IMG/VR virus record: IMGVR_UViG_3300032087_002454
Coordinates: 1 to 45,373 of that record
Strand: one strand, 5' to 3'
DNA length: 45,373 nt
From: a virus
A program made the translations under genes and the position numbers. A model generated the notes under the pieces. The model saw nothing but the letters and a program-made list of their open reading frames with translations, ran no database searches and was not told the origin of the DNA. The first letter of the stretch is position 1. Every line of letters begins with the position of its first letter. This document shows positions 8,754 to 18,928 of the stretch, piece by piece.

Positions 8754-9280
8754 TAGATGAAGATCCTCGGTGTTTGACCGAACAGAAGATTGACATCTTG
8801 AAGGTCTGCATTAGACGAGGGCTGTGTCGGTAAAGGATTTCCGTCTCCATCTAGTAGCTGTGGCATAAATCGCCATAGCCAGTTTGGAATAGGATAGACC
8901 GGAGTACCTGTGGTTGCTGTTCGTTCTTCATCTGCCCACTGTGTTCCTGCTTGACGGCCATCCATGAGCCAGGCTCCTACGATGGCAATCTGATTAGGGT
9001 ATTGAGCGATCAAACCATCTATCTCATCTTGGATAGATTGCAAGGTGCTCTTGCTTGTGTCGAAGTCAATCGACCACAGGTTATAGGTTGTTCCTTGCAG
9101 TGTAGCACTGGCGTACATGGAGCGCCGCAGCGCATCGTCTTGCATATACTTAAACAAGCGAATCTGCCTACTCGTCAATGGCCCACTATACTCCCCTTGG
9201 GATTCCGCATCCCAACGAAGAGCTGTGACCACTACCGACTGGGCAGTGTCTGACAAAGCTATCCAAATGTTTACTATCAA
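8753..9280 (-). CDS. Hypothetical protein between terminase genes
   Basis: 175 residues, probably started by TTG at 9280, which overlaps the stop of the small terminase gene. The N-terminus would read IVNIWIALSDTAQSVVVTALRW. It is mixed alpha/beta, Gln/Asp-rich, with a Pro-rich segment (GTPVYPIPNWLWRFMPQLLDGDG) near residue 130. The stop overlaps the next ATG. It could act with the repeat-containing appendage protein encoded just downstream, for example as a chaperone or attachment protein. I recognise no family, and the exact start is uncertain. Confidence 0.65.
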   Translation of the reverse strand: MIVNIWIALSDTAQSVVVTALRWDAESQGEYSGPLTSRQIRLFKYMQDDALRRSMYASATLQGTTYNLWSIDFDTSKSTLQSIQDEIDGLIAQYPNQIAIVGAWLMDGRQAGTQWADEERTATTGTPVYPIPNWLWRFMPQLLDGDGNPLPTQPSSNADLQDVNLLFGQTPRIFI

Positions 9281-9813
9281 AGTCCTAGTCTCTCTGCTTC
9301 TTCTTTAATTAGTTTATCTTCTTCGGACTCCTCCTTGAGGAGCTCCTTCTTTTCTTCCTTAGAGGGACGGCCCCGCTTAGGCTTAGGTCCATTGTACCTG
9401 TCAGCTAACCACTTAGTGGCTTGGACCCCTAGGGTAGAGCCAGCTTGGTTCTCAGCAATCTCTTGCATCTCATACCATCGCTCACTCTCGAATTTTACTT
9501 TTAGTTCTTCGCGCCAGCGAATAACGTATTCACTGAACCACGCGGCTGAGCTAAGAGCTCGCCAGTGGGCCCAAGAGCCAAACATGGCTTGGGCGAAGGC
9601 GTACTCGGTGGGGTCACCGATCTCCATGTACCTCTTGTACATTGATAGCGCGCCTTTGTGGTCGTAGTCCTTGAGGGTGAAAGGAGCTGGGTACTTAGAG
9701 TTTTTCTTCTCTATGAACAAGGATTGGGTGCGGAATCGCCCCATGGTATCCTTGAGGGCATCGTACGCGCCAGCCTCTTTCTTGGTCAAGGGAAAGGTCC
9801 CTTTAGGGACCAC
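9277..9813 (-). CDS. terS: Terminase small subunit (DNA recognition)
   Basis: 178 residues from GTG 9813 with an AAGGA nine bases upstream. A helical N-terminal half (residues 1-60) is followed by an aromatic core (FGSWAHWRALSSAAWFSEYVIRW) and an assembly helix. The C-terminal tail carries KPKRGRPSKEEKKE followed by a Glu/Lys-rich end. This KRGRPSK tail is common in small terminases of T7-like and T4-like phages. It should recognise the phage DNA and bring TerL to it. The usual adjacency to terL is broken by two inserted genes. Confidence 0.72.
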   Translation of the reverse strand: MVPKGTFPLTKKEAGAYDALKDTMGRFRTQSLFIEKKNSKYPAPFTLKDYDHKGALSMYKRYMEIGDPTEYAFAQAMFGSWAHWRALSSAAWFSEYVIRWREELKVKFESERWYEMQEIAENQAGSTLGVQATKWLADRYNGPKPKRGRPSKEEKKELLKEESEEDKLIKEEAERLGL

Positions 9814-10013
9814 TACGTTATTTCCTTCATTATGTCCTTTCGGGTTCTACGAAGTGTAGCCCGATCAGACCCAGCAGCCTGGTGGATACCAGACTTACGT
9901 GTACGTTCGTTGTTCACTGCCTTGTCCCGCACCTTGCGCAGGGCTTCCATTGTACGTTCCAGGAACCCTTGTTCCTGCTTCGTTGGCTTACGCTTAGACT
10001 CTTTACCTGGCAT
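9813..10013 (-). CDS. Small basic protein, unknown
   Basis: 66 residues, very rich in Lys and Arg (PGKESKRKPTKQEQGF...), predicted helical, with a TLRRTRKDIMKE end. ATG 10013 overlaps the stop of the preceding 47-residue gene (TAATG), and its own stop overlaps the GTG start of terS. Charge suggests nucleic-acid binding, but no domain is recognised. It may be an accessory to packaging given its place. Confidence 0.65.
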   Translation of the reverse strand: MPGKESKRKPTKQEQGFLERTMEALRKVRDKAVNNERTRKSGIHQAAGSDRATLRRTRKDIMKEIT

Positions 10014-10156
10014 TATTTGGCACTCTTTTTCTTTTTCTTGCGGTTACGAGCAGGCCGAGCGCCACCGGGACCTGTGTCCCCTGGCTTACCCTTAGTTGTA
10101 ATACGTTTAGGTTTACCGCCCTTCTCTGGGCGCTTCATCGGTTTCTTCTTAGCCAT
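10013..10156 (-). CDS. Tiny Lys-rich protein (47 aa)
   Basis: 47 residues: a KKKPMKRPEKGG start, a Gly/Pro-rich middle (KPGDTGPGGARPARN) and an RKKKKKSAK end. More than a third of residues are basic. GGAACC lies upstream as a weak Shine-Dalgarno, and the stop overlaps the next ATG. Likely unstructured and nucleic-acid binding. Function unknown. Confidence 0.6.
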   Translation of the reverse strand: MAKKKPMKRPEKGGKPKRITTKGKPGDTGPGGARPARNRKKKKKSAK

Positions 10157-10246
10157 ATCGGTTCCGTTGTAAGGGTGCAGTCCTCGTAGACAGCATTGAC
10201 AGCTTCAACTGTGTGCTTGTGTGGAAACAAGGACCACACATTAAAT

Positions 10247-10432
10247 TTAAGTTCCTCCAACTCCGCAGTGGCCTAACCACTCTGGTTCTGGGGTTGTATA
10301 GTGTTCGTGTGCTACTTCCCATCGCCAGGCCATACATTCAGGGCCTACACAATGAATAGCTATTGTTGGATTCTTTTGTTCTAGTTTAAGGGGGCAAGCT
10401 TTCAGCGCTGCCACTTCCACTGTGTATTTCAC
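10247..10432 (-). CDS. Small Cys-rich protein, first gene of the leftward operon
   Basis: 61 residues from a GTG at 10432 with GGAG upstream (TGGAGAAACTCAA-GTG). It contains KACPLKLEQKN and IHCVGPECMAWRWE. The CxGxxCMAWRW pattern recurs in small phage proteins of unknown function that look like one-zinc or metal-binding folds. A Pro/Trp-rich tail (TTPEPEWLGHCGVGG) follows. It is the promoter-proximal minus-strand gene, next to the control region, so it may be expressed before the structural genes. Confidence 0.6.
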   Translation of the reverse strand: MKYTVEVAALKACPLKLEQKNPTIAIHCVGPECMAWRWEVAHEHYTTPEPEWLGHCGVGGT

Positions 10433-10550
10433 TTGAGTTTCTCCAAGTAAATCCTTTTACACAAGCCCAGGTTGTATCTGGGTAATCCCTTCTGTTGTCA
10501 GCCAAATAAGGCTGCTATTAAAATAAGTAGTAGTAGAGCCATACATTTGT

Positions 10551-10617
10551 CTCTTCTATGGAAGAGGATACTCTTCTCTCGCCCTTTCTGTCTCTTCGGA
10601 CCTCAAGGGGAGAAGAG
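10551..10617. promoter_or_regulatory. Mutually complementary CTCTTC/GAAGAG segments (possible attenuator)
   Basis: Five six-base segments lie in 67 bp: CTCTTC at 10551, GAAGAG at 10561, CTCTTC at 10571, CTCTTC at 10592 and GAAGAG at 10612. Each copy can pair with more than one partner (10551 with 10561, or 10561 with 10571, or 10592 with 10612), the logic of an attenuator or antiterminator. It would lie in the untranslated leader of the leftward operon that begins at 10432. Regulation is inference; the repeats are directly visible. Confidence 0.35.
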
Positions 10618-10746
10618 ATATTAAAGATAGTTCTTTAAGTCCTCTTATATTAGACACCATAAAATCAATTTAGTTCCATTGGATTTGCTTTTTCCTTATA
10701 AGTCAGCAACTTATATTTTGCTATTTCTGTGAATTAGCACAATTTC

Positions 10747-10786
10747 AAGGGGTTGTATTTTCAACTTAAGGGGGTGTATAGTCAAC
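10747..10786. repeat. Tandem 19-bp imperfect direct repeats (possible operators)
   Basis: Two copies of AAGGGG(T/G)TGTAT(T/A)(T/G)TCAAC occur at 10747-10765 and 10768-10786. They match at 16 of 19 bases with a 21-bp period, close to two helical turns. On the minus strand each begins GTTGA, so they may instead be overlapping -35 elements. They lie midway in the divergent control region. Confidence 0.5.
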
Positions 10787-10882
10787 ATTGCTTGATCGAA
10801 ATCCTATGATTTCTGTTAGATAATTTCATCCTGGCTTTCCACGTAGTGGAACCGTCTTGATCCCCCTCCCCCGGCCACTTAA

Positions 10883-10921
10883 CATAACGTACGCTAATGA
10901 GAATCATTCGTATGCATTATG
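10883..10921. promoter_or_regulatory. Fur-box-like dyad
   Basis: The core AATGAGAATCATT (10896-10908) sits in a larger imperfect dyad with CATAA and TTATG ends. From 10893 it matches 14 of 19 bases of the E. coli Fur consensus GATAATGATAATCATTATC, including the continuous AATCATT. Sites of this form occur upstream of iron-regulated genes in proteobacteria. It also has a GAA loop like the other hairpins nearby, so it may simply belong to the hairpin array. Confidence 0.3.
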
Positions 10922-10954
10922 ACAAATTCCCGACGTATCCATTGATGTATAACC

Positions 10955-11008
10955 TGTGGATAACTTTAGCATTAATGCTAAGGGATTGAGATAACAACCT
11001 GTTGATAA
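10955..11008. promoter_or_regulatory. DnaA boxes; candidate replication origin
   Basis: TGTGGATAA at 10955-10963 is the exact complement of the high-affinity DnaA box TTATCCACA. TGTTGATAA at 11000-11008 gives TTATCAACA, one base off. They flank a perfect 16-bp palindrome (10966-10981) in an AT-rich stretch, and a related ACCTGTTGACA follows at 11009. This is a plausible origin or host-DnaA control site just upstream of the early genes. Confidence 0.4.
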
Positions 11009-11216
11009 CCTGTTGACAATAAGGGAAGATAATAGGAACTATTATCGTCCCTTATCATGTGCGTATATAGGATTGTATACAATCCTTAAACACCTGTGTA
11101 TATAACGGAACTCTGTTCCGTTATCCCGTGTGTTGAACTTATCTTTGATAAGTTTAAGAGATTGGCTGGCGGCCTCTTGTATCGAAGATACAACTTTGAT
11201 AAACTGCTGGAGACTT

Positions 11217-11260
11217 AGGGGAAGTAGCCCTTGAACGAAGTGAAAGGGCGTACTTACCCT
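11217..11260 (+). promoter_or_regulatory. Structured leader element with GAACGAAGTGA loop, copy 1
   Basis: The inner stem GCCCTT/AAGGGC (11227-11232 with 11244-11249) closes the 11-nt loop GAACGAAGTGA (11233-11243). An outer stem (11217-11226 with 11251-11260) adds nine pairs and one G.A mismatch, with a single bulged G. It ends 21 nt before the ATG of the first early gene at 11282, whose CGGAG is outside the stem. The loop can form A-U, C-G and a GAA triloop flanked by tandem G.A pairs. Confidence 0.7.
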
Positions 11261-11281
11261 TACCAACCGGAGAAAATTGCC

Positions 11282-11536
11282 ATGATGAGAAAATGCATTT
11301 GCCACACCGAATCCGTAGCCTTTGGCTACGTAGACTGCGAAGCTTGTGAAACAAGCTTAATTGACAGAGAAGCTCTCGATTGCAAAGCAATCGAAGCTTA
11401 CCCAGAGTCTTCGACTCTGACTGAAGCAATAACAAAGTATCTAGCGAAGCTAGACCCCCACTCTTTAGAGTGGGACTCTTGGATCGAAGCTTATACCGAA
11501 GGTAAACTGGCAAACTATTTTGGAGTTCAGATATGA
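11282..11536 (+). CDS. Early small protein 1, Cys-rich N-terminus, hairpin-dense gene
   Basis: 84 residues from ATG 11282 (CGGAGA upstream). The N-terminus MMRKCICHTESVAFGYVDCEAC has CxC and CxxC pairs that could bind one zinc. The remainder is acidic and helical (TLTEAITKYLAKLDP). The first gene of the rightward operon, so probably expressed right after infection. Its coding DNA holds at least six perfect hairpins, so codon choice here seems tied to DNA or RNA structure. Its stop overlaps the next ATG (ATGA). No family recognised. Confidence 0.7.
   Translation: MMRKCICHTESVAFGYVDCEACETSLIDREALDCKAIEAYPESSTLTEAITKYLAKLDPHSLEWDSWIEAYTEGKLANYFGVQI
11314..11474 (+). repeat. Six short perfect hairpins inside early gene 1
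   Basis: Stems and loops: 11314-11330 (7 bp, TTT), 11340-11358 (8 bp, GAA), 11376-11394 (8 bp, AAA, with a further AAGCT/AGCTT extension), 11403-11419 (7 bp, TTC), 11440-11454 (6 bp, GAA) and 11457-11474 (7 bp, TTTA). Stem sequences are unrelated to each other; only the geometry is shared. They do not keep one reading-frame phase. Confidence 0.9.
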
Positions 11537-11712
11537 TCACAGCATACACAGGTTGGCTCAACAGCATAGCTGATGAGCTTGAAGTACCCAGCTTTCAGCT
11601 GGGTTGTAGTCCTGCTGAACAGCAGGGTTCCCCTGAAGTCCGAGAGATTAACTTCGTTAATCACTCGGGATGTCCTGAAATGGACTTGACTCAAGTCTAC
11701 GACTTGAGTTAG
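11533..11712 (+). CDS. Early small protein 2 (59 aa), hairpin-dense gene
   Basis: 59 residues, beginning MITAYTGWLNSIADELEVPS and ending MDLTQVYDLS. The ATG overlaps the preceding stop (ATGA), which supports it as a real coupled gene. Acidic, mixed structure, no recognised motif. Four perfect hairpins fall within its 180 bp, the last ending at the base before the TAG stop. Function unknown; the position suggests an early host-takeover role. Confidence 0.6.
   Translation: MITAYTGWLNSIADELEVPSFQLGCSPAEQQGSPEVREINFVNHSGCPEMDLTQVYDLS
11586..11709 (+). repeat. Four short perfect hairpins inside early gene 2
   Basis: 11586-11604 (8 bp, TTC), 11611-11626 (6 bp, GAAC), 11646-11662 (7 bp, TTC, extended by CCGAG/CTCGG across an A.A mismatch to 11640-11668) and 11689-11709 (9 bp, TAC). 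Confidence 0.9.
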
Positions 11713-11726
11713 ACTTGGCAGCTTAC

Positions 11727-11766
11727 GTAACACACCCTTCTCATTTATGAGAAGGGAGTGTGTTAC
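11727..11766 (+). repeat. Strong intergenic hairpin between early genes 2 and 3
   Basis: GTAACACA/TGTGTTAC (11727-11734 with 11759-11766) stacks on CCCTTCTCA/TGAGAAGGG (11735-11743 with 11748-11756), with a two-base bulge. This is the longest stem of the region. No T-run follows, so it would be a weak terminator at best. An RNA-processing or stability site is as likely. The outer GTAACACA also occurs in the stem of the GAACGAAGTGA element at 14822. Confidence 0.8.
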
Positions 11767-11783
11767 TTACTAGGAGATTTGAA

Positions 11784-12101
11784 ATGCAAATTGCAGACAT
11801 GTTGGATCCAACCTTGTTGGATGAGATGAAAGATGCCTTCGGCATCTACGATGATGATCCTCGTGATTACATCGAAGATGTAATGGGATACAGGGATGGA
11901 ACATCCCTTTGGTATGCTGCTTGGCTCTTCGGCATCATCGTAGATGATGACGTTGATTCACTTGGTTGCCTTTGGCAACCTGACGGACAAATAGCCTCTG
12001 GCTATTACATACCTGATGACTTCGATACCGAAGTTGATCTGATCACTATTGACAATCCCAATAGGGATTGTGTTGCTTGGGATGCTAAGCCTCTGGCTTA
12101 G
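11784..12101 (+). CDS. Early small acidic protein 3, hairpin-dense gene
   Basis: 105 residues from ATG 11784, with AGGAG 8-12 bases upstream. Very acidic, with repeated Asp runs (IYDDDPRDYIEDV, IIVDDDVDS), aromatic patches (LWYAAWLFG) and no Cys pair. Highly acidic early phage proteins are often DNA mimics or inhibitors of host DNA-binding enzymes, but nothing specific shows that here. Ten perfect hairpins tile the 318-bp gene, the last containing the TAG stop. Confidence 0.7.
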   Translation: MQIADMLDPTLLDEMKDAFGIYDDDPRDYIEDVMGYRDGTSLWYAAWLFGIIVDDDVDSLGCLWQPDGQIASGYYIPDDFDTEVDLITIDNPNRDCVAWDAKPLA

Positions 12102-12134
12102 TAGTCCCCTTAATTTAGGGAGCTTTGCTCCCTA
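11806..12134 (+). repeat. Eleven short perfect hairpins in and after early gene 3
   Basis: 11806-11822 (7 bp, CTT), 11831-11847 (7, TTC), 11866-11884 (8, GAA), 11892-11908 (7, GAA), 11933-11949 (7, GTA), 11964-11980 (7, TTT), 11990-12006 (7, TCT), 12019-12034 (6, ATAC), 12052-12071 (8, AATA), 12085-12101 (7, TCT) and, beyond the stop, 12116-12134 (8, TTT). Centres are spaced about 20-35 bp, an almost regular tiling. Confidence 0.9.
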
Positions 12135-12146
12135 TTGGAGATTCAA

Positions 12147-12302
12147 ATGCTTGACATACACGTAGCATCATGGGCGCACAACATCATCGAAGATGATGTG
12201 GAACTGGTTGTCACTTACGATGACCTCATTGAAGCTGAACTACAAGCTTTGCTTGTAGAGTATGAAGAAAACACAGATCCTACGGATCTGGATATGTGGT
12301 GA
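12147..12302 (+). CDS. Early small acidic protein 4 (51 aa)
   Basis: 51 residues from ATG 12147 with TTGGAG upstream: MLDIHVASWAHNIIEDDVEL, then an acidic helix (DDLIEAELQALLVEYEEN) and an LDMW end. Similar in size and acidity to its neighbours. Three perfect hairpins lie in the gene and a fourth follows the stop. No family recognised. Confidence 0.6.
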   Translation: MLDIHVASWAHNIIEDDVELVVTYDDLIEAELQALLVEYEENTDPTDLDMW

Positions 12303-12324
12303 AAATCCAACACCGAAGGTGTTG
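12181..12324 (+). repeat. Four short perfect hairpins in and after early gene 4
   Basis: 12181-12199 (8 bp, GAA), 12240-12258 (8 bp, TTT), 12274-12290 (7 bp, TAC) and 12308-12324 (7 bp, GAA). The last lies six bases past the TGA and abuts the larger structure at 12326. Confidence 0.9.
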
Positions 12325-12325
12325 T

Positions 12326-12374
12326 TCATCCCCTGAAGCCCCTCGAACGAAGTGAGAGGGGCGTAAGGGGATGA
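12326..12374 (+). promoter_or_regulatory. Structured leader element with GAACGAAGTGA loop, copy 2
   Basis: The inner stem GCCCCTC/GAGGGGC (12338-12344 with 12356-12362) closes the identical 11-nt loop (12345-12355). The outer stem TCATCCCC/GGGGATGA (12326-12333 with 12367-12374) is separated from it by a 4x4 internal loop (TGAA/GTAA). It lies 52 nt before the ATG at 12426. Confidence 0.7.
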
Positions 12375-12425
12375 CCCACCCCATCACGGCAATTTTGCCA
12401 ACCGATACGAGTCGAGGAGACTAAC

Positions 12426-12824
12426 ATGACAGCACCAACAAGAACGAGCAACAAGCAGATCCTAGATGCAATCTTGGATCTTACCGTGGCGATCAAAGGC
12501 ATGGCAACTCCAGTTGCTGCACCTGTAGCACAGCAAGCTGTGCCCTTCATGCAACCAGTTGCTATTGCAACTCCAGCTGAAGTAGCGGCAGCTACTCAGC
12601 CGAAGGCTGAGACACCTGTTAAGATCGACGCTGCTTACCTTAACCACGTTAGTGGTGGCAAGGCATTGGCTTATGCCAATAAGACTGGTGAACAGGTTGT
12701 TATTTATGCTCGCCGCAATGGTCATGGTGAAACCAAGCTTGCCTACTGCGCTGCCTCTAAATGGACTGGCCTTAAGGACAAGTCCAACTTGGGAGCTGTC
12801 GCTACCGTCGAACCTACTTCGTAG
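12426..12824 (+). CDS. Early protein 5, Ala/Pro-rich linker with C-terminal domain
   Basis: 132 residues from ATG 12426, with GAGGAG upstream. Residues 1-28 form a charged helix (NKQILDAILDLTVAIKG), 29-65 an Ala/Pro/Val/Gln linker without charges, and 66-132 a compact basic domain with KALAYANKTGEQVVIYARRN and CAASKWTGLKDK. The layout looks like an oligomerising helix joined by a flexible linker to a small binding domain. No family recognised. Its TAG stop lies inside a hairpin. Hairpins in this gene are weaker (mostly 5-6 bp) than in the previous three. Confidence 0.7.
   Translation: MTAPTRTSNKQILDAILDLTVAIKGMATPVAAPVAQQAVPFMQPVAIATPAEVAAATQPKAETPVKIDAAYLNHVSGGKALAYANKTGEQVVIYARRNGHGETKLAYCAASKWTGLKDKSNLGAVATVEPTS
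12504..12680 (+). repeat. Seven hairpins inside early gene 5
   Basis: 12504-12517 (5-6 bp), 12528-12543 (6, CAAG), 12557-12572 (6, TATT), 12581-12596 (6, GGCA), 12595-12611 (7, GAA), 12643-12656 (5, GTTA) and 12665-12680 (6, TTAT). Loops here are mostly four bases and stems shorter, so the array fades. Confidence 0.75.
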
Positions 12825-12870
12825 GTTCCTTATCGAGGGCACTAGCTATGCTAGTGTCCTCTATTAAGGG
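12810..12870 (+). repeat. Hairpin over the stop codon plus long stem-loop after early gene 5
   Basis: 12810-12828 (8 bp, TTC loop) contains the TAG at 12822-12824. Directly after it, 12835-12861 forms a 12-bp stem (one G.U) with a TAT loop, extended by CCTTA/TAAGG (12828-12832 with 12865-12869). No T-run follows. It closes the hairpin-dense block and may act in termination or transcript processing. Confidence 0.7.
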
Positions 12871-12970
12871 ACTTAAACGTGTAGCACCTAGCGTCATGGT
12901 GTGGTGCCGACCGGGGCATCTTACGTAGTAAGACCGGAGTCCAAGTGTAGCTGGCACTATATCCATGCAA

Positions 12971-13061
12971 TCCAATGAGGTGAGGTGGCACACACACACC
13001 TGGGATCTAGCCAATAGGCTAGTGAAATGGTGGTTCGCAGGTTCAAGTCCTGCCATTGGAA
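12971..13061 (+). tRNA. tRNA-like gene with abnormal, hairpin-interrupted anticodon region
   Basis: A perfect 7-bp acceptor stem (TCCAATG 12971-12977 with CATTGGA 13054-13060), discriminator A, and a canonical T-arm (GCAGG-TTCAAGT-CCTGC, 13037-13053) are present. A D-arm-like GTG-AGGTGGCA-CAC (12980-12993) has the A14/G18G19/A21 pattern. The length of 91 nt is about 18 more than a type I tRNA. The middle contains a 6-bp hairpin CTAGCC-AATA-GGCTAG (13007-13022) and no 5-bp stem with a 7-nt loop, so I cannot assign an anticodon. CCA is not encoded. It is either a degenerate tRNA, a tRNA with an inserted hairpin, or a tRNA mimic. Confidence 0.5.
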
Positions 13062-13093
13062 CTTATTTTTTAACGCACTGTGTATTTAACATA

Positions 13094-13227
13094 ATGCAAT
13101 TGAAACTGGAGAACCTGCCTTAAAAGTAGGCCGCATCATATAGGATGGTCGGAGCCATAGGTAGAGGTAGCAGTGCAGGATAACAAAGCGCGTGGCTACC
13201 ACCTTTATGCAATGGAAATTGGAGAAC
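13094..13227 (+). repeat. Duplicated leader with ribosome-binding site
   Basis: ATGCAATTGAAACTGGAGAA (from 13094) and ATGCAATGGAAATTGGAGAA (from 13207) match at 18 of 20 bases. The second copy supplies the GGAG for the gene at 13231. The first opens a nine-codon frame (MQLKLENLP, 13094-13123) with no gene behind it. It looks like a translation-initiation module left by a duplication or gene loss. Confidence 0.6.
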
Positions 13228-13230
13228 GAT

Positions 13231-13449
13231 ATGTTAGTTAAAGGTATTAACTTTAATGGTTGTGACATCTGCTTTGATAGCACTATCAGGGCTAACCATG
13301 CCTATGTATCACGGGGTGCTACTGGTCGGTACTGTGCAGTACTGTCAGTATGTAACGACTGTGCTCCTAAGGAACACAATAAAGTGTGGGAACTAAGTGA
13401 AGCCCGCACATGGTGTGACTCCCAACCTAATAGCTGGAGTGAATTCTAA
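13231..13449 (+). CDS. Small zinc-finger-like early protein
   Basis: 72 residues from ATG 13231 (GGAG 8 bases upstream). It has NGCDICFDS near residue 10 and RYCAVLSVCNDCAPK near residue 35, two Cys groups that can hold one zinc. The C-terminal tail is Trp/Ser-rich (SQPNSWSEF). ATG 13207 is in frame but lacks a ribosome-binding site. The stop overlaps the next ATG (TAATG). Function unknown. Confidence 0.65.
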   Translation: MLVKGINFNGCDICFDSTIRANHAYVSRGATGRYCAVLSVCNDCAPKEHNKVWELSEARTWCDSQPNSWSEF

Positions 13450-13640
13450 TGCCACACAAGTATAAGGGTAAGACACCTGTTAAGACAGGTGATAGTGTGC
13501 ATCTCATCGTAGATGATGAGGTGTACCAGACTGTGCGAGTGAAGGATACACTAGCTGTACAGTTCACGGTGTCCGTTAATAAACGGATACGTTTCTTCTT
13601 CTACGAAGACCGAGGTGTAACATGGAAGCACAAGACCTAG
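13449..13640 (+). CDS. Small basic beta-rich early protein
   Basis: 63 residues: MPHKYKGKTPVKTGDSVHLIV then alternating strands (VYQTVRVKDTLAVQFTVSV) and a basic aromatic end. The pattern resembles a small barrel (SH3 or OB-like), but it is too short to assign. Coupled to the genes on both sides; the next gene starts inside its last codons. Hairpins at 13474-13491 (7 bp, TAAG) and 13572-13587 (6 bp, AATA) lie in the gene. Confidence 0.6.
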   Translation: MPHKYKGKTPVKTGDSVHLIVDDEVYQTVRVKDTLAVQFTVSVNKRIRFFFYEDRGVTWKHKT

Positions 13641-13837
13641 AATATGGCGATCACTTTAAGCTAGCTGAGCCACTAGATAAGGGCAATGACCTGCTAGTGT
13701 GGTTAGGTGACGAGTATGATGAGGACTGGTTGTGGTGTCTCATAGTTGAGACGTTTGTACCAGTAGCAGTTAGTAAGTTCTACGAGGTAGAACTGTGGCA
13801 TAAGGTGCAAGGGAAATGGGAGATAAGAAACGATTAG
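13622..13837 (+). CDS. Small acidic early protein
   Basis: 71 residues, MEAQDLEYGDHFKLAEPLDK followed by an acidic aromatic segment (WLGDEYDEDWLWCLIVETF) and FYEVELWHKVQGKW. Beta-rich and acidic, complementary in charge to the basic protein encoded just before it, with which it overlaps. A small beta-barrel is likely. No family recognised. Confidence 0.6.
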   Translation: MEAQDLEYGDHFKLAEPLDKGNDLLVWLGDEYDEDWLWCLIVETFVPVAVSKFYEVELWHKVQGKWEIRND

Positions 13838-13962
13838 TGAAGCCTAGTAAGGGGCATAGCCCCGCTATAATGGGTAAAGGTGCACCCCATAAAGACCGCA
13901 CCAAGTACACAAGGAAGCAGAAGCATGAGAAACTGGCTATTAAAGAAACTAAATGGGATTGA
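13816..13962 (+). CDS. Small basic protein (48 aa)
   Basis: 48 residues from ATG 13816, overlapping the end of the previous gene by 22 nt. It reads MGDKKRLVKPSKGHSPAIMG then KGAPHKDRTKYTRKQKHEK. A short, Lys/His-rich, probably disordered nucleic-acid-binding peptide. The next gene starts within it at 13925. A 5-bp GGGGC/GCCCC hairpin lies at 13851-13863. Confidence 0.5.
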   Translation: MGDKKRLVKPSKGHSPAIMGKGAPHKDRTKYTRKQKHEKLAIKETKWD

Positions 13963-14098
13963 TAGAGCACAGTACACTAGGCTATACGCCCAGTACCTTG
14001 ACGCACACTCTCAGTGGAACAAGACCATTGAGAAGTTCGAGATGCAAGGTGCTTGGGAACAAGTGAAGCTAGAGCGTAAAGCTCGGAGGTTAAACTAA
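13925..14098 (+). CDS. Small helical basic protein (57 aa)
   Basis: 57 residues from ATG 13925 with AGGAAG upstream: MRNWLLKKLNGIDRAQYTRL, then YAQYLDAHSQWNKTIEKFEM and a basic end. Predicted all-alpha, possibly a helical hairpin or coiled coil. The stop overlaps the next ATG (TAATG). Unknown function. Confidence 0.55.
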   Translation: MRNWLLKKLNGIDRAQYTRLYAQYLDAHSQWNKTIEKFEMQGAWEQVKLERKARRLN

Positions 14099-14286
14099 TG
14101 TACATAGTTAAGCGTACCCTTCCCAATGAGGGTAAGGTTGGCTACCTTAAGGATACAGGCTGGGTGTACTACACCATTGGTATGCCTATTGAATTAGATG
14201 GAGTGCTCCGCTTCACCCAAGGTGAACGGAACTATAACATCCTACCTGCCACGGATCAGTGGCTATACTACGGGAGCTACAAATGA
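14098..14286 (+). CDS. Small beta-rich early protein (62 aa)
   Basis: 62 residues, MYIVKRTLPNEGKVGYLKDT followed by GWVYYTIGMPIELDGV and an aromatic end (WLYYGSYK). Predicted small beta sheet. The next gene's ATG overlaps its final codons. A 6-bp hairpin (14212-14226, CAA loop) lies inside. No family recognised. Confidence 0.55.
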   Translation: MYIVKRTLPNEGKVGYLKDTGWVYYTIGMPIELDGVLRFTQGERNYNILPATDQWLYYGSYK

Positions 14287-14462
14287 ACACACAAAATAAG
14301 CAGGACTGTCTGATGGTACTGGATCGCATCCTTAAACACACACCATTAGAGATGCCTGAATACATAGGCTTAGGCTATGCTCGACACTTAATCGAGGGCA
14401 TGGAACCAGAAGATGACAGTAACGAGGCATATGAGGAGTACACTAATGAACCGCCTAACTAA
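14283..14462 (+). CDS. Small helical acidic protein (59 aa)
   Basis: 59 residues from ATG 14283, overlapping the previous stop. MNTQNKQDCLMVLDRILKHT then a helical centre and an acidic tail (EPEDDSNEAYEEYTNEPPN). It looks soluble and helical. The next gene starts inside it at 14446. Unknown function. Confidence 0.5.
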   Translation: MNTQNKQDCLMVLDRILKHTPLEMPEYIGLGYARHLIEGMEPEDDSNEAYEEYTNEPPN

Positions 14463-14676
14463 ACAGGTGATTGAAGATGTGCTCACACTAGGTGTGATCC
14501 TATGTCTGACAGGCATGACAGTGGTAGCTATACTGGATGCAGTGTACCCTAATGTACCTGCTGCAATGGAACGTGAAGCTATTGAATCGAGGGTTCATCT
14601 GCCCTCTAAATGCAGAGAGTTCTATAACACCAGTACAGATGAGTGGCAACGGTGTATGATGGTGGAGAAACGCTAA
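14446..14676 (+). CDS. Small single-pass membrane protein A
   Basis: 76 residues from ATG 14446. A short basic N-terminus is followed by one hydrophobic segment (LTLGVILCLTGMTVVAILDAV, about residues 13-33) and a charged C-terminus with two Cys (CREFY, QRCMMVEKR), which could form a disulfide if periplasmic. It is followed at once (TAATG) by a second membrane protein gene. Early inner-membrane phage proteins often alter host envelope or exclusion functions; nothing shows which here. Confidence 0.6.
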   Translation: MNRLTKQVIEDVLTLGVILCLTGMTVVAILDAVYPNVPAAMEREAIESRVHLPSKCREFYNTSTDEWQRCMMVEKR

Positions 14677-14888
14677 TGAAAACAGTAACTAAGATAGCCC
14701 GTCTTATAGGGTTAGGTACATTATATGTACTGGATTTCTGGGCAATGGTGTTCTTAATACCCGGTGTCTTACTGCTTGCGCTCGTGTTGTTACTGAAAGA
14801 GGGGCTGGATACCCTCTCCTTCGTAACACAAGAACGAAGTGATTGTGTTACGGAAGGAGAGGATGATGAAGCTGAAGTTAACGAGTGA
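14676..14888 (+). CDS. Small membrane protein B
   Basis: 70 residues from ATG 14676: MKTVTKIARLIGLGTLYVLD and a long hydrophobic run (FWAMVFLIPGVLLLALVLLL) of one long or two tightly turned segments, then an acidic cytoplasmic-like tail (TEGEDDEAEVNE). Coupled to the membrane protein gene upstream. Its 3' end contains the third GAACGAAGTGA hairpin and the ribosome-binding site of the next gene. Confidence 0.6.
   Translation: MKTVTKIARLIGLGTLYVLDFWAMVFLIPGVLLLALVLLLKEGLDTLSFVTQERSDCVTEGEDDEAEVNE
14818..14857 (+). promoter_or_regulatory. Hairpin element with GAACGAAGTGA loop, copy 3, at a ribosome-binding site
   Basis: CGTAACACAA/TTGTGTTACG (14822-14831 with 14843-14852) closes the same 11-nt loop (14832-14842). 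The stem extends by CCTT/AAGG across one bulged G, so AAGG of the AAGGAG Shine-Dalgarno (14854-14859) of the gene at 14863 is paired. It lies inside a coding region, unlike copies 1 and 2. Confidence 0.7.
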
Positions 14889-15798: not shown

Positions 15799-16009
15799 GT
15801 TTGAGTTAGAGCAGGTATGGGAAGACGGACTTAACCTTAAGATGGATGAGTTCATTCGCACGTTGTTAACGCAGATGTTTGAGAGTGACAACGGTACTAG
15901 CTACATAGTAGCAGACATGGGTGAAGGTGACAAGGCCACTAAGGTGGAGCTTAAGGTAGAGATTGTATCTATCAATGGAATCCAGGCTGACGACAAGGAG
16001 CACTCATAA
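15788..16009 (+). CDS. Small early protein preceding the MoxR gene
   Basis: 73 residues: MSNEFELEQVWEDGLNLKMD, then FIRTLLTQMFESDNG and a beta-rich C-terminus (KATKVELKVEIVSINGI). Its stop overlaps the MoxR start (TAATG), so the two are probably co-translated and might act together. No family recognised. Confidence 0.6.
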   Translation: MSNEFELEQVWEDGLNLKMDEFIRTLLTQMFESDNGTSYIVADMGEGDKATKVELKVEIVSINGIQADDKEHS

Positions 16010-17118
16010 TGGCACAGTCATTACAGGATCTGTATGGATCTGAAGTAGTTGAGAACCTCAAGCGAGGCAACCATATAGGTGAGGAGGAACAACAAGCTGA
16101 ACCACCACCCGTAATTGATCCGTTCGATCAGATAGAGGTGCGTACATTTAAGGGATTGGCAGGACAGAAGCTCTTTAGTGAACTGTTCTGGAAGCCGACC
16201 ACTATACCTGACATCCCAATCACTGTGTTCAAGGCAGAGGACTGGGACGTAGAGGCAAGGTTACATATCCCTACTCTTGACCCTAACTGGGTATGGAATC
16301 GCAAGGTAACTGAAGCGTTCGCTTTAGCTATGCATGAGGGTGACACTACCCTGTTACATGGACTCCAAGGTACAGGTAAGACATGCTTGCCAATGAACTG
16401 GTGTGCTACACTTAACATACCCTTCTGGAGGATGTCTTGTAACCGTGAGACTAGAGAGACACACTTCCTAGGTTCACCTAGTGTGGAGTATAACGATGAA
16501 GGGCAGATGTACATTAAACAGGAACCCACTATCCTTACGGACAGCTTGCGTTATGGTGGAATCTTCTGCGAAGATGAGAGCTTCAGGCATAACAGTGCCC
16601 TTGTCCTCCAGTCTCTACGAGAGAAGACTAACCGCACCGTTCTGTTACCAGATGCACCGGGCAGGACAGCTGATGAGCGTAAGCTTAAGGCTCCAGCTAA
16701 TAAGTGGTGGTATGTATTGACTGACAATACCACTGGTAGTGGTGATGAGACAGGCATCTTCGATGCTGAAGTACAGGATGCTAGTACACTGGATCGTATT
16801 GATAGCACCATTGAAGTACCGTACCTTGGCAAGCCAGAGGAACGTAAGATACTCCAGAAGTATAGCGGATTGAATGACGACATCATCAATGGGATGATTG
16901 ACGTAGCTCAGAAGGTACGTACTGCCTTTAAGAAACAGAACATGATGGCAACCATGTCAGTACGAGGGCTGTTAGCATGGGCTAATAAGATAGAGCTGAT
17001 GGGTAACATCGGAGCAGGACTTAAGCTGTCCTTCTACAATAAGCTAGGCACCGAGGATAAGAAGATCCTTGAAGATATATTCCACCAAGTATTCGCGAGG
17101 CAAATCCATGGAAAATAA
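16009..17118 (+). CDS. MoxR/CobS-type AAA+ ATPase
   Basis: 369 residues. Walker A is HGLQGTGKT (117-125), Walker B IFCEDE (185-190). The downstream sensor region includes WYVLTDNTTGSGDETG and the C-terminal lid carries ATMSVRGLLAWANK. MoxR-family ATPases form hexamers and work with VWA-domain partners as chaperones that insert metal or remodel complexes; CobS/CobT of aerobic cobalt chelatase is the best known pair. The next gene encodes exactly such a VWA partner and overlaps by 11 nt. The substrate is unknown. Cobalt chelation for the phage's B12-dependent RNR is possible, but remodelling of a host complex is equally likely. Confidence 0.82.
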   Translation: MAQSLQDLYGSEVVENLKRGNHIGEEEQQAEPPPVIDPFDQIEVRTFKGLAGQKLFSELFWKPTTIPDIPITVFKAEDWDVEARLHIPTLDPNWVWNRKVTEAFALAMHEGDTTLLHGLQGTGKTCLPMNWCATLNIPFWRMSCNRETRETHFLGSPSVEYNDEGQMYIKQEPTILTDSLRYGGIFCEDESFRHNSALVLQSLREKTNRTVLLPDAPGRTADERKLKAPANKWWYVLTDNTTGSGDETGIFDAEVQDASTLDRIDSTIEVPYLGKPEERKILQKYSGLNDDIINGMIDVAQKVRTAFKKQNMMATMSVRGLLAWANKIELMGNIGAGLKLSFYNKLGTEDKKILEDIFHQVFARQIHGK

Positions 17119-18928
17119 ACCTATGAGTGTACTGGATGTTAACAACGTCCTTAATGTATGCAAGCGTAGGTGTGATGATATGGGAGTTAGGGTAGAGTTC
17201 GATCAGTGGGCAGATACAGCCTACACTACTGAGACTACGATTACTTTACCTCCAGTCACACACCCAGTGACACAAGAGGCAGTTGATAGACTGTATGGTC
17301 TAGTGATACATGAGTGTGGTCACCACCTAAGGCCACAAGCACTTAAGATTCTTAATAAGGTGCGACCACCTGAGCATGTATGTGGATTGTTTAACATAGT
17401 AGAGGATGATGGGATGGAACGTGACCGAGCTAACGCTTGGTTAGGTGATCGCAAAGCACTAGCCACTATGAATAACATAGTGATAGGCAAGATAGTAGAG
17501 GGTGCCAAGGAACACGGTGTTAATAACAACATAGACATGGCTCCAATAGCATGTCTTGCTATCTATCAGGAGTCACGGTTAAATTGGGACAAGGAGTCAG
17601 TTGATAACGTGGCTGCGTACATAGATGTACTGCCACCTAAGGCCAAGCAACTATACGGTGAGCTTAGAGATGAGGGGTATGTTGATAAGTTCCGAGCTAC
17701 TGTTAATGAGTACGATTGTTGGAACCTAGCTATTGACTTAGCTAAGAGACTGTACCCAGGTAAGGATGAGGAGTACGAGAAGCTACGTGAGGCAGCTGGC
17801 ACTATGCCAGATCCAGATGCTGTTGAAGAACCCAAGGCACCACCTAGAGATACATCAGGTGATACCTTTGAGGATGCACATGGTAAGGAAGGGGAACCTG
17901 AGCAGTTAGGTGAGGACAGCGATAGTGATGATGAGGGTGCACCCCAAGAGGGGCGCGTCATTAGTTGGAAGGACGTAGTACTATCTGAACATGATGAGTG
18001 GAAGTCCTCAGGTGAGAAGTCTAATGGTGGGTTCGGTCTAGACTGGGAAGGTTACCATGATAAGCGGGGTGTCAGCCTGATGCCTACCTCTAAGGTTAAC
18101 GTGGTTGACCTAGAGTATAAAGGTGGGTCGCTTGGTACATGGAGAGAATCACCTAAGAATTTTATGGGTGACCATAGTGAGACTCGTGCCTTCGCTAATC
18201 AGATACGTAGATACATCCAAGCACAAGCTAGAACTAAGATGAACCCAGAGCAGTACAGTGGCAGGCTTAACCGCAGTGCCATAGTTAGGCTTGCACTCCC
18301 ACCTGTAGATGGTGGTGAGTACAACAAGCGGCTGTTCTACAACCAGACTAAGCAGGAGATGAAGGACACTGCGATCTTCGTACTAACTGACTGGTCAGGT
18401 AGCATGTGTGGTGCTAAGATGGAGTATGCAGCTGATGCAAGTCAGCGGCTAGTACATACGTTTGAACGACAGCTCCGAGTACCAGTAGCACTGGCACTGT
18501 TCTCTAACCGTAGGTCTGAGTGTGACATAGGCTATGTGAAGCGCTTCAATACGAGGGGCACTAAGCAACAGGACATAGCTGATAGGTTCTCTAAGTTCTG
18601 CAACTACAGCTCAGGTAACAACGATGCTGATGCTGTTAACTGGGCATACAATGAGCTACTTAAACGTAAGGAGTCACGTAAGATCCTGATGGTACTCAGT
18701 GATGGGTCACCAACTGGTAGCTACAAGGGTAACCCCGGTACTGCACTGCGATTCATTACTGATAAGATCCAGAAGGATCACAAGATAGAAATGTGGGGAG
18801 TAGGTATACGTAGTGAGGCAGTGAAGGGATACTATAATAACTACGTAGTAATCGACGACCCAACACAAATTAACCATGAACTGTTTACAATTATAAAGGA
18901 TGGATACAATGAATACCGAAGAGGATGA
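17108..18928 (+). CDS. VWA-domain protein with N-terminal HExxH motif (CobT-like partner of MoxR)
   Basis: 606 residues from ATG 17108 (GAGG upstream); ATG 17123 is an alternative. Residues 1-110 contain VIHECGHH (H68-E69-x2-H72) followed by NIVEDD (97-102), the signature and likely third ligand of a zinc metallopeptidase-like fold. Residues about 240-290 are a highly acidic linker (SDSDDEG). The C-terminal third is a von Willebrand A domain with the MIDAS motif DWSGS in VLTDWSGSMCG and a later VLSDGSPTG. CobT-like and MoxR-partner proteins share this acidic linker plus VWA layout. Whether the HExxH site is catalytic is unknown. It acts with the ATPase encoded immediately upstream. Confidence 0.8.
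   Translation: MENKPMSVLDVNNVLNVCKRRCDDMGVRVEFDQWADTAYTTETTITLPPVTHPVTQEAVDRLYGLVIHECGHHLRPQALKILNKVRPPEHVCGLFNIVEDDGMERDRANAWLGDRKALATMNNIVIGKIVEGAKEHGVNNNIDMAPIACLAIYQESRLNWDKESVDNVAAYIDVLPPKAKQLYGELRDEGYVDKFRATVNEYDCWNLAIDLAKRLYPGKDEEYEKLREAAGTMPDPDAVEEPKAPPRDTSGDTFEDAHGKEGEPEQLGEDSDSDDEGAPQEGRVISWKDVVLSEHDEWKSSGEKSNGGFGLDWEGYHDKRGVSLMPTSKVNVVDLEYKGGSLGTWRESPKNFMGDHSETRAFANQIRRYIQAQARTKMNPEQYSGRLNRSAIVRLALPPVDGGEYNKRLFYNQTKQEMKDTAIFVLTDWSGSMCGAKMEYAADASQRLVHTFERQLRVPVALALFSNRRSECDIGYVKRFNTRGTKQQDIADRFSKFCNYSSGNNDADAVNWAYNELLKRKESRKILMVLSDGSPTGSYKGNPGTALRFITDKIQKDHKIEMWGVGIRSEAVKGYYNNYVVIDDPTQINHELFTIIKDGYNEYRRG

Follow-up and report, generated by a model that had tools for sequence, protein, structure and literature searches.

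The early promoter hairpins of phage N4 carry a 3-nt loop on a stem of 5-7 bp. A C-G closing pair and a loop with 5'G and 3'A ends are reported to be required for their extrusion, which was observed at a superhelical density of -0.035 with magnesium (PMC4496689). In the mitochondria of Nematomorpha, mostly perfect inverted repeats lie inside functional genes and are gained and lost between species (PMC6649704). Template switching has been reported to create and maintain the stems of RNA hairpins (PMC8794818), and cruciform-forming inverted repeats of E. coli are described as fewer just 5' of start codons and enriched about 25-60 bp after them (PMC6060812).

The locus described here belongs to a Zobellviridae-like podophage, whose record of 45,373 nt, analysed at its full length, is called the window below. 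Its hairpins share with the N4 early (vRNAP) promoters the location in a podophage early region, the small stem, the 3-nt loop, in most cases the C-G closing pair and, in about half of the triloops, the G..A loop ends. However, N4 has three promoters with a conserved sequence that are read by a polymerase, whereas the present array consists of dozens of hairpins without a common sequence, many of them inside genes, and our searches of the phage proteins found no such polymerase. The first 12 kb of N4 contain at most three triloop hairpins per 2 kb. Perfect repeats within genes and a bias against codon phase 3 are also reported for Nematomorpha, but there arms of up to 142 bp are spread across the mitochondrial genes (PMC6649704), whereas the array has arms of about 7 bp and 3-nt loops at one early locus; long arms (tens of bp) of the Nematomorpha type are absent from it. 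Compensatory changes on both arms, which are encountered here, are proposed to arise in one event in template-switch RNA hairpins, but that paper concerns RNA genes and does not explain why units of fixed size should be densely arrayed at one locus (PMC8794818). Scarcity of hairpins near start codons is common to the array and to E. coli, where the pattern is described as a genome-wide statistical trend and terminators dominate the repeats at gene ends (PMC6060812). Among the titles and abstract openings listed in literature searches, mostly outside subscription journals, none describes a comparable hairpin or inverted-repeat array in phages.

The hairpin array

The initial annotation of the window had claimed more than 40 hairpins in 2.3 kb, at a density far beyond chance, and both statements were borne out. 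Between positions 10540 and 12880, zone limits that were fixed after the hairpins had been seen, there are 42 non-overlapping perfect hairpins with a stem of at least 6 bp and a loop of 3-4 nt, or 46 if 5-nt loops and up to two mismatches are permitted. The remainder of the window (41,873 nt, excluding 10001-13500) contains 54 hairpins with such stems and loops. The densest 2 kb (from 11001) holds 43 stem/loop matches of at least 7 bp with loops of 3-5 nt, a tally that includes a hairpin more than once if it has nested loops, versus about 8.6 expected from base composition over the entire 45 kb. For stems of at least 6 bp and loops of 3-8 nt, the numbers per 500 bp from 10501 to 13000 are 7, 11, 13, 9 and 8; 10001-10500 has none, and the bins from 13001 to 14500 have 4 each. 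Hence, the array thins out rightward and stops short of the leftward genes. In 11806-12134, where a nearly regular spacing had been noted earlier, the centre-to-centre distances are 25-41 nt, slightly wider than the 20-35 bp given at the time. Helical phasing of the hairpins was not found. The array and its genes are as follows (labels beginning with L denote related records).

10540..12880, no strand assigned: hairpin array, 42 non-overlapping perfect hairpins in a control region and five genes
10551..11193, no strand assigned: non-coding stretch of the array (control region), flanked by the leftward genes on one side and the first rightward gene on the other
11282..11536, + strand: array gene 1, 84 aa, C-terminus similar by eye to an L036 protein (reverse complement 1853-2089)
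11533..11712, + strand: array gene 2, 59 aa, predicted ORF
11784..12101, + strand: array gene 3 ('AFG gene'), 105 aa, with aligned counterparts in L027, L032, L036 and L003
12147..12302, + strand: array gene 4, 51 aa, with a YDDLIE..QALL.EY segment common to L021
12426..12824, + strand: array gene 5 (A1), 132 aa, with a homologue in 7/7 array lineages
12810..12828, + strand: hairpin over the gene 5 stop (12822-12824)

The identity of the gene 3 protein to its four aligned counterparts is 28-42% with the window as reference; the direct BLASTP match to the L003 protein is weak (E 0.055), and a search of viral contigs with the gene 3 protein gave no confirmed match. Pfam has no match for genes 1 and 2 and no family for A1. 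The AlphaFold model of A1 is of moderate quality (mean pLDDT 68.6), and a fold search with it gave no match at E <= 0.001. Searches for the A1 protein in named phages and in bacterial or archaeal genome contigs found none, and searches of named phages gave no DNA relatives for window positions 9000-14500 or for the L021 array.

Hairpins had been said to run over or against the stop codons at 11710, 12099 and 12822, and they do so: hairpin 11689-11709 ends directly 5' of the stop at 11710-11712, hairpin 12085-12101 covers the stop at 12099-12101, and the third lies over the gene 5 stop. A hairpin of other sequence is found over the gene 5 stop or within about 10 nt of it in 5/6 other lineages (over it in L021, L028 and L032, before it in L027, after it in L036). 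L002 has no hairpin of at least 6 bp at this site.

Related lineages and compensatory changes

Six further lineages carry an array at the same locus with stems of other sequence, in agreement with the proposal that shape is conserved rather than sequence. All seven array lineages, uncultured viruses of bacteria in which the array occupies the first early genes, fall within one clade of the terminase tree, and eight Zobellviridae-type records without an array show at most six triloop hairpins per 2 kb. The seven are non-independent samples, L021 and L028 having hairpins in common. The terminase is about 50-56% identical to those of Zobellviridae among the matches listed (20 of 221 records), and the genome layout has divergent early and structural arms, as in that family. 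On both points tested, terminase relation and divergent arms, the predicted genes of the phage agree with Zobellviridae. Another candidate carrier, MW202697 (L004), was rejected by eye, as its peak falls on an extended AT repeat located at about 35.4-35.6 kb.

Comparison with relatives, suggested at the outset as a check, showed that related phages carry both the hairpins and compensatory changes. Two hairpins could be followed between lineages.

11831..11847, + strand: hairpin AGATGCC TTC GGCATCT, coding DAFGI (the AFG hairpin), with orthologues in L003, L027, L032 and L036
12240..12258, + strand: hairpin CTACAAGC TTT GCTTGTAG, within gene 4

In the five lineages, all 35 cells of the AFG hairpin are paired (35/35), and four of its seven pairs have changed on both arms. 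Its covariation score is 0.714 versus 0.174 for shuffled alignments, and 0/500 shuffles reach it. Four cells are not Watson-Crick; all four are G-U, and the outermost pair accounts for three. The L021 counterpart of the gene 4 hairpin is CATCAAGC TTT GCTTGATG, in which two pairs are altered on both sides.

Structure of the hairpin unit

The excess of triloop stems peaks at 7 bp (8, 20, 38, 54, 26 and 13 for stems of 4, 5, 6, 7, 8 and 9 bp, respectively). It is smaller for 4-nt loops and extends to a few 6-bp stems with 5-nt loops. In transcribed zones, with this mode of 7 bp, the longest triloop stem has 11 bp. A C-G closing pair is present in 136/178 hairpins of six arrays. The 136 triloops of these arrays include 39 GNA, 26 TNC, 33 TNT and 21 ANA loops, and a G..A loop occurs on either strand in 65 of them. 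GNA/TNT loops lie on the + strand in 70/112 cases (p 0.010), and energy models show no preference for the + or - strand. G-C content tends to rise a little as stems get shorter (Spearman -0.18, p 0.03). Flanking sequence carries at most 0.06 bit of information at each of 30 positions.

Next to 95 perfect 7-pair triloop stems there is one with an internal G-U, versus 1.24 expected by chance. G-U accounts for 0/11 core mismatches (1.12 expected by chance) and is found in 0/26 one-mismatch hairpins with 6-9 pairs. Seven stems have a core mismatch and 8-10 pairs, versus 0.5 expected. One-mismatch hairpins with 8-13 pairs are in surplus. That this clearly proves a stability threshold was considered and rejected, as these hairpins are mostly perfect cores of at least 6 pairs that were extended partly by chance; restricting mismatches to the core gave the same trend, resting on seven hairpins.

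Hairpins in coding sequence

Codon-preserving shuffles, the other check suggested initially, left the excess intact: the window genes contain 29 hairpins versus a mean of 2.33 and a maximum of 7 in 200 shuffles. In the seven related arrays, 26 genes with predicted translation contain 126 perfect inverted repeats versus 11.1 after shuffling (maximum 20, 200 shuffles). The middle of the loop falls on codon positions 2/1/3 in a ratio of 58/30/12, a bias against the most constraining phase. Start codons are avoided, with a hairpin coverage of 0.04, 0.00 and 0.04 at -10 to +19 versus a mean of 0.29 (27 starts), which suggests that hairpins in the mRNA matter too.

GA-tandem elements

A second, strand-specific element is a GA-tandem hairpin, found in 14 copies, on one strand only and mostly in gene leaders.

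11227..11249, + strand: GA-tandem hairpin GCCCTT[GA]AC GAA GT[GA]AAGGGC, leader of gene 1
12338..12362, + strand: GA-tandem hairpin, leader of gene 5
14822..14852, + strand: GA-tandem hairpin outside the array, directly 5' of a putative ribosome-binding site

Invariant mismatches are kept inside outer stems that are perfect and covary, and G-U is present in 0/104 cells. No copy with an outer-stem G-U was found within the arrays; elsewhere, the search returned two weak 4-of-6 matches (window 25363 and L032 14755) with one G-U.

Discussion

The array is real, clade-wide and fixed at one locus; it shows compensatory changes and a narrow unit size, and it generally refuses G-U pairs. We give an even chance to the explanation that it consists of DNA mini-hairpins under selection for how the DNA strand itself folds. 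The unit would comprise about seven Watson-Crick pairs and a 3-nt loop of the GNA/TNC or TNT/ANA type, usually closed by C-G. By analogy with the N4 early-promoter hairpins, it could be extruded in phage DNA by negative supercoiling; alternatively, it could fold while one of the strands, with + the likelier of the two, is single-stranded during early transcription or replication. The control/early region would in this way become a structural zone that takes up torsion or serves for the loading of phage or host proteins. What is selected would be the number and stability of the folded units and not their sequence, so that single hairpins could be replaced while the density stays. Among the roles offered in the initial annotation, the best fit is a DNA structure close to a control or origin region, its reader being hypothetical; no reader protein was recognised in our analysis.

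A bolder version, which we put forward tentatively and consider somewhat doubtful, is that the array represents a new class of genome feature, coding DNA co-selected to fold, strand by strand, into near-equal mini-hairpins. The early genes would also serve as a DNA scaffold, either extruded by supercoiling or with the + strand single-stranded. Its shape rather than its sequence would be read by dedicated proteins, and it would have specialised, strand-specific members in the GA-tandem hairpins.

It is unlikely, though well worth weighing, that the hairpins are functionless products of a mutational drive, in which short palindromes arise and are perfected time and again by template switching at fold-back ends and selection merely removes the harmful ones (at ribosome-binding sites and in conserved protein domains). 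Stems that are Watson-Crick perfect, with hardly any decayed forms, are equally expected from such arm-to-arm copying, which is reported to make and keep stems (PMC8794818), and the nearly hairpin-free start-codon regions and the codon-phase bias, similar to that of the Nematomorpha palindromes (PMC6649704), agree with it as well. So does the comparison of L002 and L003, near-identical elsewhere in the compared 1 kb, which differ by an indel and a single clustered change affecting the two arms of one hairpin. However, 0/15 substitutions between L036 and L038 lie in hairpins (only about 6 of the 15 are within the array), and the seven core-mismatch stems persist. A purely mutational origin is disfavoured because the trait is confined to one 2-kb locus of one clade, because the excess peaks at 7 bp rather than declining from short stems, and because of the mismatches of the GA-tandem elements, which outward copying from the loop should erase. 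Of the template-switching origin suggested earlier, a possible contribution is left: it may help in making the stems.

We regard structure at the RNA level as rather improbable, that is, an early mRNA folded into a string of hairpins that guards against RNases, blocks guide-RNA pairing, or stops R-loops and backtracking. The array does span an apparent transcription unit and spares ribosome-binding sites, the GA-tandem element keeps to one strand and mostly to gene leaders, eight examples fold as RNA at -5.2 to -12.0 kcal/mol, and the non-Watson-Crick cells of the AFG hairpin are all G-U. Nevertheless, G-U is otherwise treated as a mismatch, which makes selection on mRNA folding alone unlikely, and even at stem ends it is not in excess over A-C (in six arrays, the 119 first mismatches include 22 G-U and 21 A-C). 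The transcript processing or protection role proposed at first is disfavoured for the same reason. Rfam gave 0 matches at gathering scores in the window; 10340-13300 has five matches up to E 5 (best 0.18), all under gathering.

Promoters for an N4-type virion RNA polymerase would account for the geometry, the loop rule and the podophage early region, but many hairpins lie inside genes, the stems are not conserved and there is no conserved flank, which makes this reading very improbable. Moreover, no giant virion RNA polymerase was found among the PHROGs matches of 15 large ORFs, and the 1765-aa virion protein has no polymerase match in Pfam and no solved-structure match (PDB phmmer), remote homology being possible. 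Copies of a mobile palindromic repeat, such as REP or the Rickettsia palindromic element, or successive intrinsic terminators would also give short palindromes between and inside genes. Both can practically be dismissed, as the stems differ by site, each of the 11 direct-repeat families in 10340-13300 comprises 2-3 copies, and 10150-13700 has four terminator-like sites versus 2.5 by chance.

If folding of the DNA strand is indeed what is selected, coding DNA would be under strong, clade-wide and sequence-independent selection for its own secondary structure, not via RNA. The seven lineages would be natural replicates in which the same structural task is carried out by different sequences, and the clade would open short-hairpin extrusion in vivo at scale and the trade-off between structure and coding to testing. 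A mutational cause would still mean a very localised palindrome-making process.

Other features of the locus

Two further features lie near the ends of the array.

10949..11019, no strand assigned: three 15-nt repeats (ATAACCTGTGGATAA type), one with the DnaA-box-like word TTATCCACA
12832..12864, + strand: longer hairpin 3' of gene 5, with a G-T pair, likewise in L027 and L032

The 15-nt repeats are a possible origin or operator. DnaA boxes as an explanation were rejected, the window containing one TTATNCACA, which is not above chance. The longer hairpin is not followed by a T-run. The left part of the non-coding region 10551..11193 aligns by eye with L011, and in this alignment at least one hairpin-bearing segment has been swapped for a segment with a different hairpin.

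Hairpin density and setting of the array

The dense hairpin array claimed in the initial annotation proved stronger than first stated. Positions 10540-12880, which comprise a non-coding control region and five rightward genes, hold 42 non-overlapping perfect hairpins (stem of at least 6 bp, loop of 3-4 nt), versus 54 by the same criteria in the 41,873 nt of the window outside 10001-13500. Hairpins contact the stop codons of three genes, as the annotation had described. The density also withstood a codon-preserving control, in which synonymous codons were permuted within each gene: the five array genes contain 29 hairpins, compared with a mean of 2.33 and a maximum of 7 in 200 shuffles. The excess in five non-array genes of the window under the same control (11 versus 4.8) is mild and not in the class of the array genes.

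The window is a 45,373-bp virus record from IMG/VR, the source of its relatives as well. The array lies where its two gene arms diverge and takes in the control region together with the rightward genes nearest to it. The + strand carries DnaB-like helicase, DNA polymerase, ribonucleotide reductase, CobT-like and AAA-ATPase genes, and the - strand the terminase and virion genes. The large terminase shares about 50-56% identity with those of Zobellviridae phages, among them Roseobacter phage CRP-4 and Lentibacter phage ICBM1 (best 20 of 221 records). The ICBM1 record annotates direct terminal repeats, the genome ends, at the place equivalent to the array locus. The cumulative GC skew reaches its minimum at the array's left edge (10.5-11 kb) and its maximum at about 29 kb, where gene direction switches. 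At 16009-18928, the early arm pairs an AAA ATPase ("porphyrin biosynthesis" PHROG, CobS-like) with the CobT-like gene.

Array-bearing relatives

Relatives among viral contigs (virus records with L numbers) were found by querying with A1, the protein of array gene 5 (12426-12824), or, for L021 and L022, with a CobS-like sequence. The array adjoins A1 in all 10 distinct contigs apart from the window, an association that is partly built in because most array phages were found via A1. These contigs form six lineages (L002/L003; L021 with L022 and L031; L028; L027; L032; L036/L038), whose stem sequences differ from those of the window and whose terminases are 67-72% identical to its own. The array recurs in relatives with other stems, and compensatory changes are seen. 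In the terminase tree, all seven array lineages fall into one well-supported clade of 13 rows, the remaining six of which (L010-L015) are fragments with the array locus uncovered or covered at its left edge only (L011, L014). The seven arrays have 16-30 triloop (3-nt loop) hairpins per 2 kb versus at most 2-6 in eight Zobellviridae-type records (L004-L009, L043 and SIO1); all of these eight but SIO1 were placed in the tree, where they lie outside the array clade.

A1 and its homologues (alignment A3), which occur in all the array phages found, make up a family with no match in the databases; it has an N-terminal helix, a variable linker and a conserved C-terminal domain. A tblastn search of 50,697 phage records gave no match to A1, nor was it found in genome contigs.

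The hairpin unit and its turnover

In the seven arrays, the triloop excess over shuffled sequences peaks at 7 bp (8, 20, 38, 54, 26, 13 and 5 for stems of 4 to 10 bp). The excess is smaller for 4-nt loops; 5-nt loops give a few 6-bp stems, and 6-8-nt loops two stems of at least 7 bp. In six arrays, a C-G pair closes 136 of 178 hairpins, and 119 of 136 triloops are of the GNA, TNC, TNT or ANA type; in the seventh (L036), 12 of 24 triloop stems carry TTT or AAA. Among 100 coding triloop hairpins, the middle base of the loop is at codon position 2, 1 and 3 in 58, 30 and 12 cases, respectively. Tests of the array hairpins for helical phasing and for a flank motif found neither.

A hairpin around Ala-Phe-Gly in the gene 3 family (window 11784-12101) is conserved in five lineages, with standard pairs in 35/35 cells. 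Four of its seven pairs have changed on both sides, and its covariation score is 0.714 versus 0.174 shuffled (0/500). The residues on either side change in concert, in the pairs expected from reverse-complement codons (Asp/Ile, Glu/Phe, Lys/Leu, Gln/Leu); G-U occupies 4/35 cells, three of them at the outermost pair. The hairpin at 12240-12258 is shared with L021, two pairs having been exchanged. Comparison of L021 with L028 shows some unchanged hairpins, some with compensated pairs and many that have given way to a different hairpin close by; density and form therefore persist through the turnover of single hairpins. Counting all pairs, misaligned ones included, the fates are as follows.

Fate of hairpin pairs between L021 and L028
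L021 to L028: 89 same, 15 compensated, 29 one-side broken, 6 G-U, 9 A-C, 6 both-side broken, 48 in gaps
L028 to L021: 83 same, 12 compensated, 40 one-side broken, 8 G-U, 6 A-C, 13 both-side broken, 10 in gaps

The folding molecule

Selection on mRNA folding would be expected to leave many G-U pairs. Seven-pair triloop stems comprise 95 perfect cases (0.66 shuffled), one with an internal G-U (1.24 shuffled) and four with A-C (1.12 shuffled). G-U accounts for 0/11 core mismatches (1.12 expected by chance) and 0/26 one-mismatch hairpins with 6-9 pairs and loops of 3 and 4 nt. In six arrays, the first mismatched pair past the stem end is G-U in 22 and A-C in 21 of 119 cases. Among one-mismatch hairpins with at least 8 pairs, G-U occurs in 7/33, all seven with at least 10 pairs. 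Two of these seven, and one more case from the stem-end count, are a single hairpin after gene 5 whose G-U is kept in three lineages and which, unlike the array hairpins, may be an RNA-level element:

Window 12832-12864; L027 ~7864; L032 ~8349: post-gene-5 hairpin with conserved G-T pair

As G-U is not common in the stems, the folding molecule appears to be DNA, or both strands. The + strand carries the GNA or TNT loop in 70/112 cases (p 0.010), a weak sign that this strand matters more. RNA also has a say, because the zone from -10 to +19 at 27 start codons is nearly hairpin-free (coverage 0.04, 0.00 and 0.04 versus 0.29). Despite this avoidance, RNA structure is an unlikely explanation of the array, given that G-U is generally not taken as a pair.

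A second hairpin kind

A scan of seven zones for any two-base symmetric internal loop returned 13 hairpins, of which 10 had GA facing GA, versus 1/10 rows in the remainder of the window. In this GA-tandem element, the triloop sits on two pairs, below which GA faces GA and an inner stem of 6-12 bp follows; as judged by eye, an additional outer stem is frequent. Its 14 copies, in seven lineages, are all rightward and mostly in gene leaders. L036/L038 also carry a related form, with a loop of 4 nt, on the other strand and ahead of the array genes.

Window 11227-11249, 12338-12362, 14822-14852; also L003, L021, L027, L028, L032, L036; rightward: GA-tandem two-tier hairpin
L036 ~9122 and L038 ~2065, + strand: opposite-orientation GA-tandem, 4-nt loop

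The four G/A positions are invariant, and eight pairs, all covarying, are Watson-Crick in 104/104 cells (13 distinct rows). The initial search demanded perfect inner stems; when outer pairs were counted freely, GA-tandem copies had 6/6 and chance-like matches 4/6, with none between. No copy was found in L004-L019. The element suggests that a strand-specific structure is under selection in the array region, again without G-U.

Selection or copying

The reading with the best support is selection, at the level of DNA, for a string of mini-hairpins, and we give it about an even chance. That the hairpins do something beyond folding we infer; the closest mechanism, by analogy, would be extrusion as in the early promoter hairpins of bacteriophage N4. 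There, extrusion needs a closing C-G pair, the usual one in the arrays, and G..A loop ends (PMC4496689), which 65 of 136 array triloops have on one strand or the other.

Template switching, a mutational drive that makes perfect stems, could also yield them without decayed forms, as argued for Nematomorpha. L002 and L003 differ by one clustered change, perhaps a template switch or a recombination event, in which both arms of a single hairpin are altered together with an indel; between L036 and L038, none of 15 substitutions in 3.4 kb is inside a hairpin, and these two near-identical pairs are an informative but small sample. As the whole cause, however, template switching is improbable: the trait is confined to one locus and one clade, stem lengths are peaked, length trades weakly against G-C content (Spearman -0.18, p 0.03), and seven core-mismatched stems have 8-10 pairs versus 0.5 expected, whereas no surplus is seen at 6-7 pairs (4 versus 6.1).

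Control-region repeats

Three 15-nt repeats of the ATAACCTGTGGATAA type, one containing a DnaA-box-like word, lie next to the first array gene at 10949-11019 and are a possible origin or operator. Control regions of several relatives share a pyrimidine tract followed by CTTAACATAA or a CTTATGTCA-like sequence:

Window ~10860-10890; L021 ~3738-3762; L028: pyrimidine tract CCCCCTCCCCC

The L011 contig terminates at this tract, which is perhaps a genome end.
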